Shown here: piece by piece, positions 28,626 through 62,123 of the stretch | Layout of the letters: each line of letters begins with the position of its first letter | How positions within the stretch are numbered: the first letter of the stretch is position 1 | Source: Flexivirga endophytica | Lineage (GTDB): Bacteria; Actinomycetota; Actinomycetes; Actinomycetales; Dermatophilaceae | Assembly: GCF_014640635.1 (NCBI RefSeq) | Contig: NZ_BMHI01000001.1 | Span: 310,001 to 374,000 of the forward strand | Direction of reading: 5' to 3' | DNA length: 64,000 nt | Translations under genes and position numbers: made by a program | Notes under the pieces: generated by a model | Database searches by the model: none | Told to the model about the DNA's origin: nothing | Seen by the model: only the letters and a program-made list of their open reading frames with translations

Positions 28626-28731
28626 CCCTTCGCCGAGGGGACAGGCGTTGTAATGAGAGGACAGGCGATTTGGCGGACTTTGCCCGAAATCGCCTGTCCT
28701 CTCGACAATTGGGCGTCCTCTCGGCGAAGGG
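28626..28731. repeat. Nested palindrome, family C copy 1
   Basis: The outer arm CCCTTCGCCGAGGGGAC (28626-28642) pairs with 28715-28731 with one mismatch. The inner arm GAGAGGACAGGCGATTT (28655-28671) pairs perfectly with 28687-28703. Outer and inner arms share the core GAGRGGACAGGCG. It fills the space between the convergent regulator gene (stop 28609) and LLM gene (stop 28732). Related copies are at 47506 and 58719. Confidence 0.85.
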
Positions 28732-38331: not shown

Positions 38332-41300
38332 ATGACCTATCCGAAGGTCGACCTGACCGCATCGCAGACCGGCGACGTCAATGCCGTCGCATCCTCCGCG
38401 GACTTCCCGGCGATCGAGCAGGCCGTACGCAAGTATTGGGACGCCGATGACACCTTCCGTGCGTCCGTTGAGCAGCGCGATGCGGGCAAGGACGGCACCA
38501 ACGAGTTCGTCTTCTACGACGGCCCGCCCTTCGCCAACGGTCTCCCGCACTACGGCCACCTGCTGACCGGCTACGTCAAGGACCTCATCCCGCGCTACCA
38601 GACGATGCGCGGCAAGCGCGTCGAGCGCCGCTTCGGCTGGGACACCCACGGGCTGCCTGCCGAGCTCGAGGCGATGAAGCAGCTCGGGCTGAAGACCAAG
38701 GACGAGATCCTCGAGATGGGCGTCGACAAGTTCAACGACGCCGCACGGGCCTCGGTGCTGCGCTACACCGGCGAGTGGCGTGAGTATGTCGAGCGGATGG
38801 GCCGCTGGGTCGACTTCGACAACGACTACAAGACGCTGAACCCCGACTTCATGGAGTCGGTCATCTGGGCCTTCAAGCAGCTCTTCGACAAGGGGCTGAT
38901 CTACGAGGGCTTCCGCGTGTTGCCCTACTGCTGGAACGACGAGACGCCGCTGTCCAACCACGAGCTGCGGATGGACGACGACGTCTACCAGATGCGGCAG
39001 GACCCGGCGGTGACCGTCGGATTCCGTTGCACCAGCAGCACATTGGATGTTCTGAAGGATACGCTCTTCCTGGTGTGGACCACCACGCCGTGGACCCTGC
39101 CGGCCAACCTCGCGGTCATGGTCGGGCCGGACATCGACTACGTCGTGGTCGAGACCGATGTGCCGACCGGCACCACCCAGCGATACGTGATCGCGCACGC
39201 GCGGCTGGCGGCATACGCCAAGGAACTCTTCGGCGATGCCAAGGCCGACCCGGAGCCGTATGTCGTCGCGCGCCTCTCCGGCAACGACCTGCTCGAGTCG
39301 GTCTACGCGCCGCCGTTCGGTTACTACGAAGGCCACGAGAAGGCCTTCCGCGTCGTACCCGCCGACTTCGTCACGACCACCGACGGCACCGGATTGGTCC
39401 ACACCGCAGGCGCTTTCGGTGAGGACGACATGGTCGTCACCGACCGCGAGGGCATCGTGCCGGTCATGCCGGTCGGCCCCGACGGCCGTTTCACCTACCC
39501 GGTCTCCGAGTACGAAGGCATGCTGGTCTTCGACGCGAACCCGCACATCATCGACGACCTGAAGGCAGCGACGAATGCCTTGCGGGACGGCCGTATCGAA
39601 GGACTCGGGGCCCCCGCGAAGTATTCGGAGGCTGCGGGCCCCGACGAAGTATCGGAGGAGCGTAGCGGGGGAGAACTTCGTCGGGTGCAGGGAAGCGGGG
39701 GAGAAACTTCGTGGGGTGAGGTCACCGGGGGCACCGTGCTGCTGCGTCGCGAGACCTACGAGCACTCCTACCCGCACTGCTGGCGGTGCCGAAACCCGTT
39801 GATCTACAAGGCAGTCAGCTCCTGGTTCGTCAGCGTCACGTCGTTCAAGGACCGGATGCTGGCACACAACCAGGAGATCAATTGGGTGCCCGGCAACGTC
39901 AAGGACGGGCAGTTCGGCACGTGGCTGGCCAACGCCCGCGACTGGTCGATCACCCGCAACCGCTTCTGGGGCAGCCCGGTGCCGGTGTGGAAGTCCGACA
40001 ACCCGGAGTTCCCGCGAGTCGACGTCTACGGGTCGTTCGAGGAGCTCGAGCGCGACTTCGGAGTCAAGGTCGACGACCTGCACCGGCCAGGCATCGATCA
40101 GTTGACCCGCCCGAATCCCGATGATCCAAGCGGGAATTCGACGATGCGCCGCGTCGAGGACGTCCTCGACGTATGGTTCGACTCCGGGTCGATGCCCTAC
40201 GGCCAGGTGCACTACCCCTTCGAGAACGCCGACTGGTTCGAGCACCACTTCCCGGCCGACTTCATCGTCGAATACATCGGCCAGACTCGCGGCTGGTTCT
40301 ACATGCTGCACATCCTGTCGACCGCGCTCTTCGACAAGCCGGCCTTCAAGAACGTCATCTGCCACGGCATCGTGCTCGGCAGCGACGGGCAGAAGATGTC
40401 CAAGTCCCTCTCCAACTACCCCGACGTCTCAGAGGTCTTCAACCGCGACGGCGCGGACGCCATGCGTTGGTTCCTGATGAGCAGCCCGATCCTGCGCGGC
40501 GGCAACCTCATCGTCACCGAGCAGGGCATCCGCGACGGTGTGCGGCAGGTGCTGCTGCCGTTGTGGAGCAGCTGGTACTTCTTCAGCCTCTACGCGAATG
40601 CTGCTGGGACCGAGGGACATTGGTCGACCGAGTCCACGAACGTCATGGACCGCTACGTGCTGGCCAAGACCCGCGAGTTGGTCGAGACCGTCCGCATGGA
40701 CCTCGACGAGTTCAACGTCGCCGGCGCGTGCGACGCGGTGCAGAGCTTCCTCGACGTGCTCACCAACTGGTACATCCGCCGCTCCCGCGAGCGCTTTTGG
40801 GGAACGAACGGCGCCGACGGGGACGCACAGGCTGCCTTCGACACCCTCTACACCGTGCTGGAGACCGTATGCCGGGTAGCTGCTCCGCTGCTGCCGTTCG
40901 TCACCGAGCAGGTATGGCGCGGGCTGACCGGTGGTCGCTCGGTGCACCTGACCGACTGGCCGGACTCCACCGATCTGCCCGCCGATGAGCAGCTCGTCAC
41001 GGCGATGGACCGTGCCCGCGCGGTCTGCTCCACGACGCTCTCGGTCCGCAAGGCCCAGCAGTTGCGCGTGCGGCTGCCGCTGGCGACGCTGACCGTGGTG
41101 GTCAAGGACGCGGCAGCACTGGCCGACTTCAGCGCTCTCATCGCCGATGAGGTCAACGTCCGAGAGGTGCGCCTCGTCGACCTGGCCGAGGCCAGCGAGT
41201 CCGACTTCGGCATCGAGCAGAAGCTGACCGTGAATGCCCGCGCAGCCGGCCCTCGACTGGGCAAGGACGTGCAACGCGCGATCAAGGGCAGCAAGTCCGG

Positions 41301-41766
41301 GGACTGGTCGGTGGCCGAGGACGGCACCGTCACCAGTGGCGGATTAGCCCTGCAGGAGAGCGAATTCAGCCTCGAGTCGGTCGTGACCGACCAGGCCCAG
41401 GCGCACCAGGTCGCCGCGATGCTGCCCGGTGGTGGCTTCGTGGTGCTCGACACCGACGTCACCGACGAGTTGCGCATCGAAGGCCTGGCCCGCGACATCA
41501 TCCGTGCGGTCCAGCAGGCCCGCCGTGATGCCGGCCTGGAGGTCAGCGACCGGATCAGCCTGGGCGTCACCGGAGACGACGACGCCTGGCAGGCCACGGT
41601 CACCCACCAGCAGCTGATCATGCGTGAGACGCTGGCGGTGCAGTTCGGCTCCGCCGGCGCGGGTCACGAGCTGCCCGGTGCCGTCGACGCGGATCTCGGC
41701 GGCGGCAAGCACGTGTCGATCGCGGTCAAGCGTGTCGAGTCGGCGACAGAGGGGACGGCGCGATGA
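38332..41766 (+). CDS. ileS: Isoleucine--tRNA ligase with an inserted repeat peptide
   Basis: IleRS charges tRNA-Ile and edits Val. The HIGH motif is HYGH at 73-76 ([12 protein letters not shown]), the KMSKS loop is near 687-691 ([10 protein letters not shown]), and the [13 protein letters not shown] editing-domain block is near residue 250. Length is 1144 from ATG 38332 ([11 protein letters not shown]); GTG 38314 is an alternative start. Residues 425-462 are encoded by a family D palindromic element and have no counterpart in other IleRS. They sit between DGRIEG and [19 protein letters not shown], at the end of the CP1 editing region. The gene is under T-box control and is followed by a GNAT gene. 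Confidence 0.96.
39604..39717 (+). repeat. Family D nested palindrome inserted in frame within ileS
   Basis: This 114-base element (38 codons) begins CTCGGGGCCCCCGCGAAGTA and ends AGAAACTTCGTGGGGT. The outer arms CCCCGCGAAGT (39612-39622) and ACTTCGTGGGG (39706-39716) pair, as do the inner arms CCCGACGAAGT (39640-39650) and ACTTCGTCGGG (39675-39685). The same element, about 90% identical by eye, lies between genes at 60661-60776. It introduces no stop codon in the ileS frame and encodes Gly/Ser/Glu-rich peptide ([19 protein letters not shown] at its end). Confidence 0.9.
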
Positions 41767-45183: not shown

Positions 45184-45600
45184 ATGGAACGCACCCTCGT
45201 CATCGTCAAACCCGACGGATTCGCCCGTGGCCTCACCGGTGAAGTCCTGCGCCGCATCGAGGCCAAGGGCTACACCCTGGACACTCTGCAGATCATGACC
45301 GCGGACCGCGACCGGCTCGCGCAGCACTACGCCGAGCACGAGGGCAAGCCGTTCTACCAGCCGCTGGTCGACTTCATGGCCAGTGGACCCGCGACGTTCG
45401 CGATCGTCAGCGGGCACCGAGTGATCGAGGGCTTCCGCGCGATCGCCGGCGCCACCGACCCGACCGCCGCCGCACCGGGCAGCATCCGTGGCGACCTCGG
45501 TCGCGACTGGGGCCTTGCGGTGCAGCAGAACATCGTGCACGGCTCGGACTCCCCGGAGTCGGCCGAGCGCGAGATCGGCATCTGGTTCGCCCAACGCTGA
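45184..45600 (+). CDS. ndk: Nucleoside diphosphate kinase
   Basis: Ndk transfers phosphate between nucleoside tri- and diphosphates through a phosphohistidine. The catalytic His119 is in NIVHGSDSPESA, with the family start MERTLVIVKPDGFARGL and IRGDLG. Length is 138, normal. The stop codon region CCCAACGCTGAGACTCG is repeated downstream: the 72-bp tandem array begins immediately after it, and its units end in nearly the same string. Confidence 0.97.
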   Translation: MERTLVIVKPDGFARGLTGEVLRRIEAKGYTLDTLQIMTADRDRLAQHYAEHEGKPFYQPLVDFMASGPATFAIVSGHRVIEGFRAIAGATDPTAAAPGSIRGDLGRDWGLAVQQNIVHGSDSPESAEREIGIWFAQR

Positions 45601-45888
45601 GACTCGTTCCTCGTCTCGGCGTTGTGCTCACCTGTGCTTGACGTGCCGTCCTTCGGCCGGGCCCAACCCTGAGACTCGTTCCTCGTCTCGGCGTTGTGCT
45701 CACCTGTGCTTGACGTGCCGTCCTTCGGCCGGGCCCAACCCTGAGACTCGTTCCTCGTCTCGGTGTTGTGCTCACCTGTGCTTGACGTGCCGTCCTTCGG
45801 CCGGGCCCAACGCTGAGACTCGTTCCTCGTCTCGGTGTTGTGCTCACCTGTGCTTGACGTGCCGTCCTTCGGCCGGGCCCAACCCTGA
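45601..45888. repeat. Four 72-bp tandem repeats
   Basis: Units at 45601-45672, 45673-45744, 45745-45816 and 45817-45888 start GACTCGTTCCTCGTCTCGG and end CGGGCCCAACSCTGA. Differences are few (GGCGTTG or GGTGTTG, ACCCTGA or ACGCTGA). 72 is a multiple of three, so both strands stay open and give repeated peptides, but no ribosome site or homology supports translation. The array lies exactly between the ndk stop codon and a Doc-like gene fragment. It has no spacers and is not a CRISPR array. Confidence 0.93.
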
Positions 45889-46057
45889 GACTCGGCTTGC
45901 CCTCGTGTCGGTGCGGTTGTTCTACGCGCTCAACGACTATCGATTCGTGGCGAGCGATGATGAGAAATTCGACCTCATCGTCGACATCGCCACCGATGCC
46001 TTGGCGGGAGTCGCTGAGATCGCTGCGCGTCTGGAGCGGTACGCCGGCCCGGCCTGA
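45889..46057 (+). pseudogene. Doc/Fic toxin C-terminal remnant
   Basis: The frame ending at 46057 reads RLALVSVRLFYALNDYRF, then SDDEKFDLIVDIATDAL and EIAARLERYAG. It looks like the C-terminal helices of death-on-curing (Doc) toxins, which usually read RLAL...FL.LNG....D.E....V. The catalytic HPFxxGNKR part and the antitoxin are missing. The fragment joins the tandem repeats in frame. It is best explained as a decayed toxin gene whose 5' part was lost or replaced by the array. Confidence 0.65.
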
Positions 46058-46074: not shown

Positions 46075-46185
46075 CACTGGACGCGATCCCTGCAGGGGAA
46101 GCCGGTGCGAATCCGGCGCTGACCCGCAACCGTGTGCCGACCTGGCGTCATACGCCGGCGGCGAGCCGGAGCACCTGTGCGTCCA
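46075..46185 (+). promoter_or_regulatory. Cobalamin riboswitch
   Basis: The conserved AdoCbl/B12 core is plain: GGGGAAGCCGGTGCGAATCC (46095-46114) followed by GGCGCTGACCCGCAACCGT (46115-46133), then the B12 box GAGCCGGAGCACC (46163-46175). The 90 bases to the start codon contain GC-rich inverted segments (GTCGCGGCCCCGCGAG, CGCGGGCCGCGCG) able to form an expression platform near the ribosome site. It controls the secreted protein at 46264. B12 binding would be expected to turn that gene off. Confidence 0.92.
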
Positions 46186-58718: not shown

Positions 58719-58829
58719 ACCCCTTCGCCGAGAGGACATCCGTTTGTCGAGAGGACAGGCGATCTGGGCCGAATTCGGCCCAGATCGCCTGTCCCCTCGG
58801 TCATCGCCTGTCCTTTCGGCGTATGGGGT
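58719..58829. repeat. Nested palindrome, family C copy 3
   Basis: The inner part 58748-58799 is a 52-base palindrome with one mismatched pair and no spacer, centred on GAATTC (left arm CGAGAGGACAGGCGATCTGG). The outer arms ACCCCTTCGCCGAGAGGACA (58719-58738) and 58809-58829 (TGTCCTTTCGGCG...GGGGT) pair with few mismatches. Outer and inner arms share CGAGAGGACA. It lies between gdhA and the ABC exporter. The remaining 80 bases should hold the exporter promoter. Confidence 0.86.
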
Positions 58830-60660: not shown

Positions 60661-60776
60661 CTCGGGGTCCCCGCGAAGTATTCGGAGGAGCGGGCCCCGA
60701 CGAAGTATCGGGGGAGCGAAGCGGAGGAGAACTTCGGTGGGTGCAGGTGCGCAGCGGGGGAGAAACTTCGTGGGGT
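60661..60776. repeat. Family D nested palindrome, intergenic copy
   Basis: This 116-base element starts CTCGGGGTCCCCGCGAAGTA and ends AGAAACTTCGTGGGGT. It is nearly identical to the insertion in ileS at 39604-39717, with one single-base and one three-base length difference and about seven substitutions. The outer arms CCCCGCGAAGT/ACTTCGTGGGG pair, as do the inner CCCGACGAAGT/ACTTCGGTGGG (partly). It lies between the convergent permease gene and the MocR gene and touches the MocR stop codon at 60777. Confidence 0.9.
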
Positions 60777-62123
60777 TTAGCGGCCGATCGATCCGCCGAC
60801 ATGTGCCGCGACGGCCAGCGCGTTCGCGACGTGCTCGAGCTCGTCGGCCACCAGACCGGCCGTGACCCGGATGTGCGGAGCGGGTCGGGCCGGGTCGATC
60901 CCCAGTTGGAAGGGCGAGCCCGGCGCGGCGCCGATGCCACTGGCCGCCAGACTCTGCAGCGCCGAGACCTCGTTGAGGACCGGCACCCAGATGTTGATGC
61001 CGTCGTCGCCGCCGACGACCACGTCGTGTGACCGCAGTGCGTCGGCCAGCCGGCTGCGCCGTGAGGTGTATGCCGCCCGAGCAGCCCCGACCTCCTGCTG
61101 GCACGACGGGTCGGTGAGCAGTGCCAGCAGCAACCGCTGCAACAACCGGCTGGACCAGCCCTGACCCAGTTGCCGACGCTCCTCCAGCGCCCGGATCAGT
61201 CGCTCCGGACCGCCGACGGCGGCGAGCCGGAGGTCGGGGCCGTAGGCCTTGGAGAAGCTGCGGATGTGCAGCACGCGATCCGGCAGCAGGCTGCTCAGGC
61301 TGACCAGATCGGAGCCGGCGATGCCGTCCAACGAGTCGTCCTCGACGACCAGTACGGTCGTCGGGGCGATGACCGCGGCGAGCTCCTGAGCGCGCTGAGG
61401 GCCGAGCGACACCCCGGTCGGGTTCTGCCCGCGCGGCTGCAACACCACCAGTTCAGCTCCGCCGGCCAGTGCGGCCGCGAGGCTCTGCGGGACCAGCCCG
61501 TGCTCGTCGAGCGCCACTGGCACCGGATGCATGCCGCCGCTCTCCAGAAGGTCGAGGAACGGTGGAAATGCGGGGTTTTCGATGGCAACGCGGGTGCCGT
61601 AGCTGCCGAGCAGTTGCAGGATCGCGGCCATGGCATCGGTCGCACCGTCGACGATCGTCAGCCGTTCCGGCAAGCCCGGCCACGTGGTGCGTATGACGTC
61701 CGCCAGCTCCGGCACCACCGGGTCGTCCAGGTAACTGTGCGGCGAAGAACTGTCGCCGAGGGCGCGCAACGAATCGCCCCACGAGGGGAGCAGGTGCGGA
61801 TCCGGGACACCGGTCGACAGGTCGAGGGCGAAGTCGACGGGACGGCCGATCGCCCGACGGTAGCGGCCGCTCGAGAGCGGGCCGGACGGTTCGGCGATGA
61901 ACGAGCCGTGCCGTCCCTCGGTGCGGATCGTCCCGGCTCGCCGCAACGTCGCCCACGCCGAGCTGACGGTGGTCGGCGAGAGCTGCAGCCCCTCGGCGAC
62001 CGAACGGATCGGTGGTAGCCGCATGCCCGGGTCCAGTGATCCGGCCGCGACGGCTCGCGCCACGGCGTCCGCCAACCCGCGAGCAGTCGGTTCGGACAGT
62101 CGTTGCGCCAGCTCGTTGATCAC
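60777..62123 (-). CDS. MocR-type GntR regulator with aminotransferase-like domain
   Basis: The 448-residue protein joins an N-terminal GntR winged helix (LPPIRSVAEGLQLSPTTVSS, residues 36-55) to a fold-type I aminotransferase domain. That domain has the PLP Lys in SFSKAYGPDLRLA near 300 and VVLQPRGQNPTG near 225. MocR regulators bind PLP and control amino acid, GABA, taurine or vitamin B6 genes. It starts GTG 62123 and is divergent from mmsA by 60 bases, so it probably controls mmsA and the following aminotransferase. Confidence 0.93.
   Translation of the reverse strand: MINELAQRLSEPTARGLADAVARAVAAGSLDPGMRLPPIRSVAEGLQLSPTTVSSAWATLRRAGTIRTEGRHGSFIAEPSGPLSSGRYRRAIGRPVDFALDLSTGVPDPHLLPSWGDSLRALGDSSSPHSYLDDPVVPELADVIRTTWPGLPERLTIVDGATDAMAAILQLLGSYGTRVAIENPAFPPFLDLLESGGMHPVPVALDEHGLVPQSLAAALAGGAELVVLQPRGQNPTGVSLGPQRAQELAAVIAPTTVLVVEDDSLDGIAGSDLVSLSSLLPDRVLHIRSFSKAYGPDLRLAAVGGPERLIRALEERRQLGQGWSSRLLQRLLLALLTDPSCQQEVGAARAAYTSRRSRLADALRSHDVVVGGDDGINIWVPVLNEVSALQSLAASGIGAAPGSPFQLGIDPARPAPHIRVTAGLVADELEHVANALAVAAHVGGSIGR

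Follow-up and report, generated by a model that had tools for sequence, protein, structure and literature searches.

How a palindromic sequence comes to lie in frame within the gene of an aminoacyl-tRNA synthetase, and in what capacity it is kept there, is the question raised by the ileS gene of Flexivirga endophytica. We analysed a stretch of 64,000 nucleotides of this genome (the window), whose numbering is used below. The ileS gene lies on the plus strand at 38332–41766, starts with ATG and encodes an isoleucyl-tRNA synthetase (IleRS) of 1144 aa (Pfam tRNA-synt_1, E 2.9e-130). This is the sole full-length IleRS among the own-genome matches listed, the other synthetase hits being partial, at 27–35% identity. 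A first-pass annotation had reported a nested palindrome within ileS that holds no stop codon in the ileS frame and is nearly identical to an intergenic element of the window. The palindrome was found at that place, and the family consensus shifts its core to 39606–39718 on the plus strand (113 nt; about residues 425–462). The frame is open throughout 38332–41766. The intergenic partner, also nested and on the plus strand, lies at 60663–60777 and is 90% identical to the ileS copy; by eye, the TTA directly beside it would be the stop codon of a gene on the minus strand. The dinucleotides flanking the ileS core, CT (39604–39605) and AG (39719–39720), are complementary.

The 114-nt block in ileS goes beyond a plain nested palindrome, being made of two units, one within the loop of the other. 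All of its parts are on the plus strand. The 5′ half of the outer unit (CGGGGCCCCCGCGAAGTATTCGGAGG, 'TATTC' type) occupies 39606–39631, and its 3′ half, which ends in GGAGAAACTTCGTGGGGTG and is the partner type of the 'TATTC' 5′ half, occupies 39691–39718. The inner unit, of the 'TATC' type, fills the loop between them (39632–39690; core 39636–39687), is closed by CTGC/GCAG and forms its own hairpin in the predicted fold. A possible remnant of a second palindrome family adjoins the element at 39590–39603, where GCCGTATCGAAGGA resembles the arm GCCGTATCGAGACC by eye. The 114-mer had a predicted folding energy of −51.5 kcal/mol, where shuffled sequences averaged −43.5 (z −2.3; other strand, z −3.45), and a single consensus unit gave z −2.0 and −2.7 on the two strands. 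Neither window copy matched Rfam 15 at the gathering score.

The consensus of the basic unit is CGGGGTCCCCGCGAAGTATCGGAGGAGCGAAGCGGGGGAGAACTTCGTGGGGTG (54 nt). In a longer type of 56 nt, the 5′ arm contains TATTC and the 3′ arm GAGAAAC, and unit length ranges from 54 to 60 nt across the family. Among 54 aligned 54-nt copies, the main stem was paired in 98.1% of cells and both-sided changes occurred at 3 of 13 main-stem pairs; much of the covariation comes from two flanking pairs, and the covariation and pairing counts are inflated by the kinship of the copies. Distinct single copies were free of stop codons in all six frames in 79 of 95 cases, compared to 7% of shuffled consensus sequences and 19.6% of random 54-mers of the window, these copies being related and hence not independent.

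The family is dispersed in high copy number. The 8-mer CGAAGTAT occurs five times in the window against 0.39 expected (0/100 shuffles reach 5), one of these sites (34785, locus L176) being outside any element. Its genome count is 180, against 11 for the reversed control. We rejected this 8-mer as a census of the family: 30 of 100 listed places are non-elements, and the genome count therefore overstates the family. With the 114-mer, at least 46 matches to E 1e-3 were obtained in the own genome, many of them partial (40 of 130 first-look candidates scored). A profile search of fetched stretches gave 74 own-genome clusters, comprising 52 single units, 9 with one half to either side, and 13 others. 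When 66 own-genome clusters were parsed into half-units, 32 read '()', 12 '(())', 1 '((()))' and 2 '(((())))', and 19 were partial, tandem or mixed; the loose half-unit pattern adds stray half-units to this parse. As L012 has four 5′ arms and three real 3′ arms, L014 is the sole complete four-deep copy. Where copies were read by eye, each inner arm had its partner in an inner arm and each outer arm in an outer one, and in the common nested classes nesting adds 60 or 57 nt (counted by hand).

We designate the own genome G000 and its four congeners G001–G004; L numbers denote loci. The expectation of a mobile or copyable hairpin was borne out by searches that found near-identical copies both genome-wide in G000 and in the sister species. 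Nine more nested composites of the ileS kind were aligned, five from G000, two from G001 and one each from G002 and G004, the closest relatives of the ileS composite being 94% and 93% identical. Judged from these alignments, the composite itself has spread.

Two other repeats were observed in the window. Another palindromic family, CCCTTCGCCGAGAGGACATCC... GTCGAGAGGACAGGCGAT, occurs at 28672–28731, 58721–58780 and 58774–58827; its arms are 83% and 81% complementary, and by eye it has no likeness to the ileS element. A tandem array with a period of 72 nt (3n), the adjacent reference windows of which are 97–99% identical, lies at 45517–45948, shortly before a borderline match to a cobalamin riboswitch (46096–46175).

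The IleRS of relatives was compared at the insertion site. The element profile had no match inside ileS at any of 80 named loci, two weak hits (E 0.32) preceding the gene. The loop was read in all 80, and the longest (L096) carries extra residues of its own that are unrelated. Thus, the presence of the insert in distant relatives lacking the repeat, named in the first-pass annotation as the result that would speak against it, was not seen among these loci. Among the congeners, the loop at this site is short in G001 and G004, whereas G002 and G003 have other inserts there. The G003 loop contains palindromes of the second family, TGGTCGAGTAG ... TATCGAGACCA, and that of G002 a single, slightly changed one. 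The loop of G000 exceeds those of G001 and G004 by 141 nt, which is the element plus 27 nt, and some of these 27 nt may be left over from the second family. Matches to PDB homologues break at residues 415–467, after the CP1 editing domain. The IleRS of G001 has an independent first-family copy, antisense and in frame, that adds 22 residues near residue 825 and is absent from the eight other IleRS aligned. A 17-residue insertion, EATIRSSSSAQPESDND, was observed in the IleRS of G002 (L138) near G000 residue 758, and it too is absent from the eight other IleRS aligned.

The second family has many different loops, and some of its loop modules are common to the family of the ileS element (L370–L388). 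Its exact arms number 134 in G003, 22 in G002, 36 in G023 and 115 in G028, against 4, 13, 8 and 11 in the respective reversed controls.

Besides ileS, about a dozen further housekeeping genes in this species and its close relatives harbour the element in frame. In a set of 149 clusters from 11 genomes, in which the flanks were scored by codon usage, 12 were in frame inside genes; these 12 are partly selected, because the filter demanded a matching open frame. Nine of them are in G000, in the genes for IleRS, MurG, MurB, QueA, an Lhr helicase, LutB, a PASTA-domain protein kinase, a short ThrRS paralogue and an ATPase/kinase-like protein. The others are in MurB of G001, a HelD-like helicase of G002 and HrpA of G004. 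Two in-frame copies lie beyond the 12, one in the dnaX gene of G000, missed by the filter, and the other in the G001 IleRS, outside the set. The DnaX copy (L005) is nested and follows domain III. MurG, MurB, ThrRS and Lhr were named by PDB matches, and the kinase, LutB and DnaX by Pfam. The names QueA, HrpA, HelD and kinase-like protein are tentative and come from the sequences themselves.

Filled and empty sites were compared using the orthologues of eight genes in the five congeneric genomes. The MurG and MurB inserts are common to G000 and G001 and absent in G002–G004. Those of QueA, Lhr and ThrRS were found only in G000 (1 of 5 genomes), as was that of LutB (1 of 4, there being no G001 orthologue among the matches listed). 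The HelD insert is present only in G002 and the HrpA insert only in G004. Relative to tidy empty sites the inserted lengths were 60 nt in MurB, QueA and ThrRS, 54 nt in LutB and 63 nt in HrpA; at the MurG, Lhr and HelD sites, the linker varies among the species. The PDB homologues of MurG, MurB, the short ThrRS, IleRS and Lhr have a gap opposite the insert. The comparison of the ileS insert with RPEs, the palindromic elements of Rickettsia, was thus apt, as 13 further in-frame copies and empty sites in relatives were found. All five congeners have the short ThrRS-like protein (open frames of 436–489 aa), and the one of G000 (L198) carries the element. We do not claim that this ThrRS is essential, because a longer ThrRS-like match (39–40% identity) is present in each of the four congeners.

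Across these host genes, each of the three forward frames of the element is used, and reverse frames are too; therefore, the peptide itself is not what is kept. As a check on the filter, the 64 clusters with same-strand coding sequence on both sides were sorted. Twelve of these are in frame in a gene, 46 come after a stop and 6 are read-through cases, in which the upstream frame ends 1–36 nt past the element and a broken gene could go unnoticed; none of the 64 is a clear mid-gene frame-breaker. At L174 the element lies between two coding regions, presumably maltokinase-like and GlgB-like, with one open frame running through it, and this locus may be a fusion or two genes.

Selection on the hairpin was tested for two shared inserts, those of MurB and MurG. 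Between G000 and G001, the MurB inserts are identical at 66 of 69 bases, compared to 397 of 507 in the flanks (p 0.0001). The MurG inserts are identical at 49 of 54, compared to 473 of 579, a difference short of significance (p 0.06). When third codon positions are taken alone, conservation is higher in the insert than in the flanks for both MurB (p 0.012) and MurG (p 0.0067). None of the remaining clusters among the 149 has the MurB loop variant, and this argues against conversion from other copies. The third-position conservation is a hint that the hairpin may be under selection within coding sequence and, together with the covarying pairs, suggests something more than passive tolerance.

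Outside genes, the copies often have a common place and direction, which may reflect the choice of target or the survival of insertions that do no harm. The initial description did not contain this; it had caught the nested palindrome, but not the full two-unit build, the second-family palindromes in this loop of two congeners or the one-way placement beside stops. Relative to the non-genic elements, the neighbouring genes were antisense in 94 cases and sense in 14, the remaining 29 being unassigned. The copies inside genes were 9 sense and 3 antisense (Fisher p 1.2e-5 versus non-genic), and the later G001 IleRS copy is antisense. In the antisense direction, a coding frame ends within 60 nt upstream of the element in 82 of 136 non-genic clusters, compared to 15 in the control direction. 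A stop codon lies 0–4 nt before the element in 59 of these 136, compared to 3 in the opposite-strand control. An ATG both ≤8 nt before and ≤7 nt after the element, again in the antisense direction, was found in 35 of 149 clusters. The typical pattern is ATGA-element-ATGA at a stop/start junction, and it recurs in several low-copy genomes of other genera.

Features of the target were sought in the flanks. Target-site duplications in the 12-nt flanks were in no general excess (n 59, p 0.18), and for direct repeats in the 40-nt flanks, 16 of 146 clusters had high scores where 8.2 were expected. The idea that the element inserts into large hairpins generally was rejected, since the inverted-repeat score of the 40-nt flanks was 5.45 compared to 5.50 after shuffling (146 clusters). 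Only the two bases beside each end are complementary, in 71% and 50% of the G000 copies (n 72) versus 30% and 26% when shuffled. The first flanking base was complementary in 56% of the copies in G001 (p 0.010), 62% in G002 (p 0.057), 67% in G003 (p 0.003), 73% in G004 (p 0.003) and 50% in G022 (p 0.41), with n 10–16 per genome. Insertion into hairpin loops was observed in the nested copies and, by eye, in a few palindromes of the second family (L005, L177 and L182). Microhomology between the empty site and the element ends was noted at HrpA, QueA and MurB (by eye, uncounted).

The 60-nt unit matches 62 of 186 genomes and 25 of 53 genera of the family. One gene junction, between an upstream PAPS-reductase-domain gene and a downstream translation-type GTPase (each typed in one locus), has the element in three genomes of two genera (L361–L363), which suggests long retention. 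We also looked for a mobiliser. A profile search for RAYT-type Y1_Tnp (PF01797), in which the E. coli positive control matched, found none in 35 genomes of the family (G000–G034); this domain was present in 2 of 56 genomes overall, both outside the family. The element was absent from the plasmids and phages searched, and viral contigs had no match to its exact 34-base pattern. Beside low-copy elements (20 regions, six neighbouring proteins typed by Pfam), neither a mobiliser nor a parent insertion sequence was found; these six proteins belong to ordinary metabolic or translation-type genes.

We consider it very probable that the insert in ileS is one copy of a mobile, non-autonomous palindrome and is read through as a tolerated linker. 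Comparison showed a dispersed family, filled and empty sites of the same genes among congeners, and nested composites at unrelated loci. Against this reading speak the mobiliser searches without a hit, the want of a general target-site duplication (despite the direct repeats in the longer flanks), and the third-position conservation and covarying pairs. Given a length of 54–60 nt and the usual six-frame lack of stops, an insertion of 3n length in a permissive loop would be read through as a linker of ∼18–22 residues, or 38 for the ileS composite. Many other surviving copies lie directly after stops and face one way, a position in which neither neighbouring gene should suffer, and the ATG near both ends of some copies looks as if the stop/start overlap had been duplicated. 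A unit can also occupy the loop of another, giving Russian-doll hairpins up to four deep, and the ileS copy probably arrived as a ready-made composite. Its 38 residues are presumably translated and would form a surface loop after the editing (CP1) domain, tolerated rather than useful to IleRS. An enzyme acting in trans would move the element, with no Y1/RAYT in the same genome as far as the profile sees.

A rather unlikely alternative is that the palindromes are kept mainly as nucleic-acid elements, either as mRNA hairpins between the genes of operons, in the manner of REPs, or as DNA hairpins that bind proteins, and that the in-gene copies are kept likewise. The prevailing antisense orientation of non-genic neighbours, the start of so many copies within 4 nt of a stop, the paired stem with its both-sided changes, the third-position conservation in MurB and MurG with the unique MurB variant, and the junction that keeps the element across two genera are all consistent with such a role. 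However, at 6 of the 8 genes tested the insert is present in one species only, so these copies are not indispensable. The in-gene copies also mostly have the opposite orientation to the non-genic ones, and a single mRNA role therefore does not suit the two sets together; the all-base test for MurG, too, was not significant. That the 38 residues function as protein, as a useful new IleRS surface for tRNA, a partner or regulation, is improbable. Three of the five species do have additional sequence at this loop, and the frame through the well-preserved composite is open, but the loop peptides differ wholly between the species, two of the five lack them, and other proteins contain the element in several frames and in both orientations.

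Mobile hairpin elements called 'byp' occur in some yeast mitochondria, and the insert might, like these, be skipped by ribosomes or removed from the mRNA and so remain untranslated. A hairpin within the mRNA, as predicted by the fold, and its tolerance of nesting would suit such skipping, but the frame would then be irrelevant, yet all five exact inserted lengths are 3n (a count biased by the filter) and the 64 clusters contain no clear mid-gene frame-breaker; we regard this possibility as marginally less probable still than a protein function. High-copy repeats can mislead assemblers, and the annotation had itself raised an artefact joining two loci. Both flanks, however, are the correct halves of ileS, the repeat is short, and the MurG and MurB insertions are shared by two separate assemblies, which makes an artefact hardly credible. 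Among these explanations, we thus favour the copy of a mobile palindrome read through as a linker.

A broader proposal can be put forward only tentatively: that these are RAYT-independent mobile hairpins of actinobacteria, in two families that differ in their arms but share some loop modules and target habits, with the hairpin selected within genes. If so, both families would enter hairpin loops, their own or each other's, as well as positions right behind stops, and the mover would probably be an enzyme so far unlinked to palindromic repeats. Nearly frame-neutral through their length and lack of stops, the hairpins would keep adding linkers to housekeeping enzymes, and the IleRS of the genus would have been hit at least twice, at two loops.

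Palindromes in protein genes are, by the titles of Ogata 2002 and Ogata 2005, reportedly a unique but recurrent feature of Rickettsia and said to occur in Wolbachia too. RPEs are described as palindromic, dispersed sequences of 105–150 bp, in frame in conserved protein genes (PMC2229807, PMC10969869). The ileS composite of 114 bp is likewise palindromic and dispersed, and lies in frame inside several unrelated conserved genes; the available parts of these two accounts, too, name no mobiliser. Unlike RPEs as described there, the element has a unit of 54–60 nt, is GC-rich and actinobacterial, is usually open in six frames and is built also by nesting, and its non-genic copies follow stops in one orientation.

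The REPs tagged with GTAG/CGTC are small stem-loops near the 3′ ends of upstream genes, and some lie inside repair genes, RNA helicases and tRNA synthetases (PMC3733652). Two Xanthomonas species have different REPs at about the same recB site (PMC3733652), which, as far as that account goes, parallels the two palindrome families in the IleRS loop. Like REPs, the element is a short imperfect palindrome of high copy number and mostly extragenic. GTAG REPs accompany RAYT transposases in most species (PMC3733652), whereas no RAYT was found here, and the element reads GTAT before the loop in its consensus, the end tetranucleotide GTAG/CGTC being absent. In the second family (TGGTCGAGTAG...) GTAG does occur, followed by a short hairpin. 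The element is further set apart from REPs, as far as the available text of that account goes, by its nesting of units with matched arms. MITEs are short and non-autonomous with an inverted-repeat structure, and in-frame fusions are known (PMC10969869); the element has these three properties. A possible contrast with MITEs as described is that no general target-site duplication was found in its 12-nt flanks, and no parent insertion sequence turned up beside its low-copy copies. BIMEs are mosaics of REPs, regularly spaced and alternating in orientation (PMC2817692). The element resembles them in forming composites of palindromic units, and differs from that outline as its units are in tandem or nested in the loops of others. 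By title, no earlier description of such an actinobacterial family was found in the literature searched, most subscription papers lying outside this search, and a search with the letters of the element listed matches on other subjects, also by title. We conclude that this is a distinct actinobacterial family of the same kind as RPEs and intragenic REPs. It has a sequence, a nesting and a placement of its own, and no REP transposase was detected.

Judged by their genomes, these bacteria resemble Rickettsia in having mobile linkers within their proteins, the linkers being presumably translated. Here the setting is a high-GC lineage with a genome of 4.7 Mb, in which the element is spread across a family and several congeners are filled or empty in the same essential genes. 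The filled and empty congeners therefore allow a direct test of the effect of the insert on enzymes, using MurG, MurB and IleRS with and without it. The nested copies record the order of insertion, and the system lets one study how palindromes move without RAYT.
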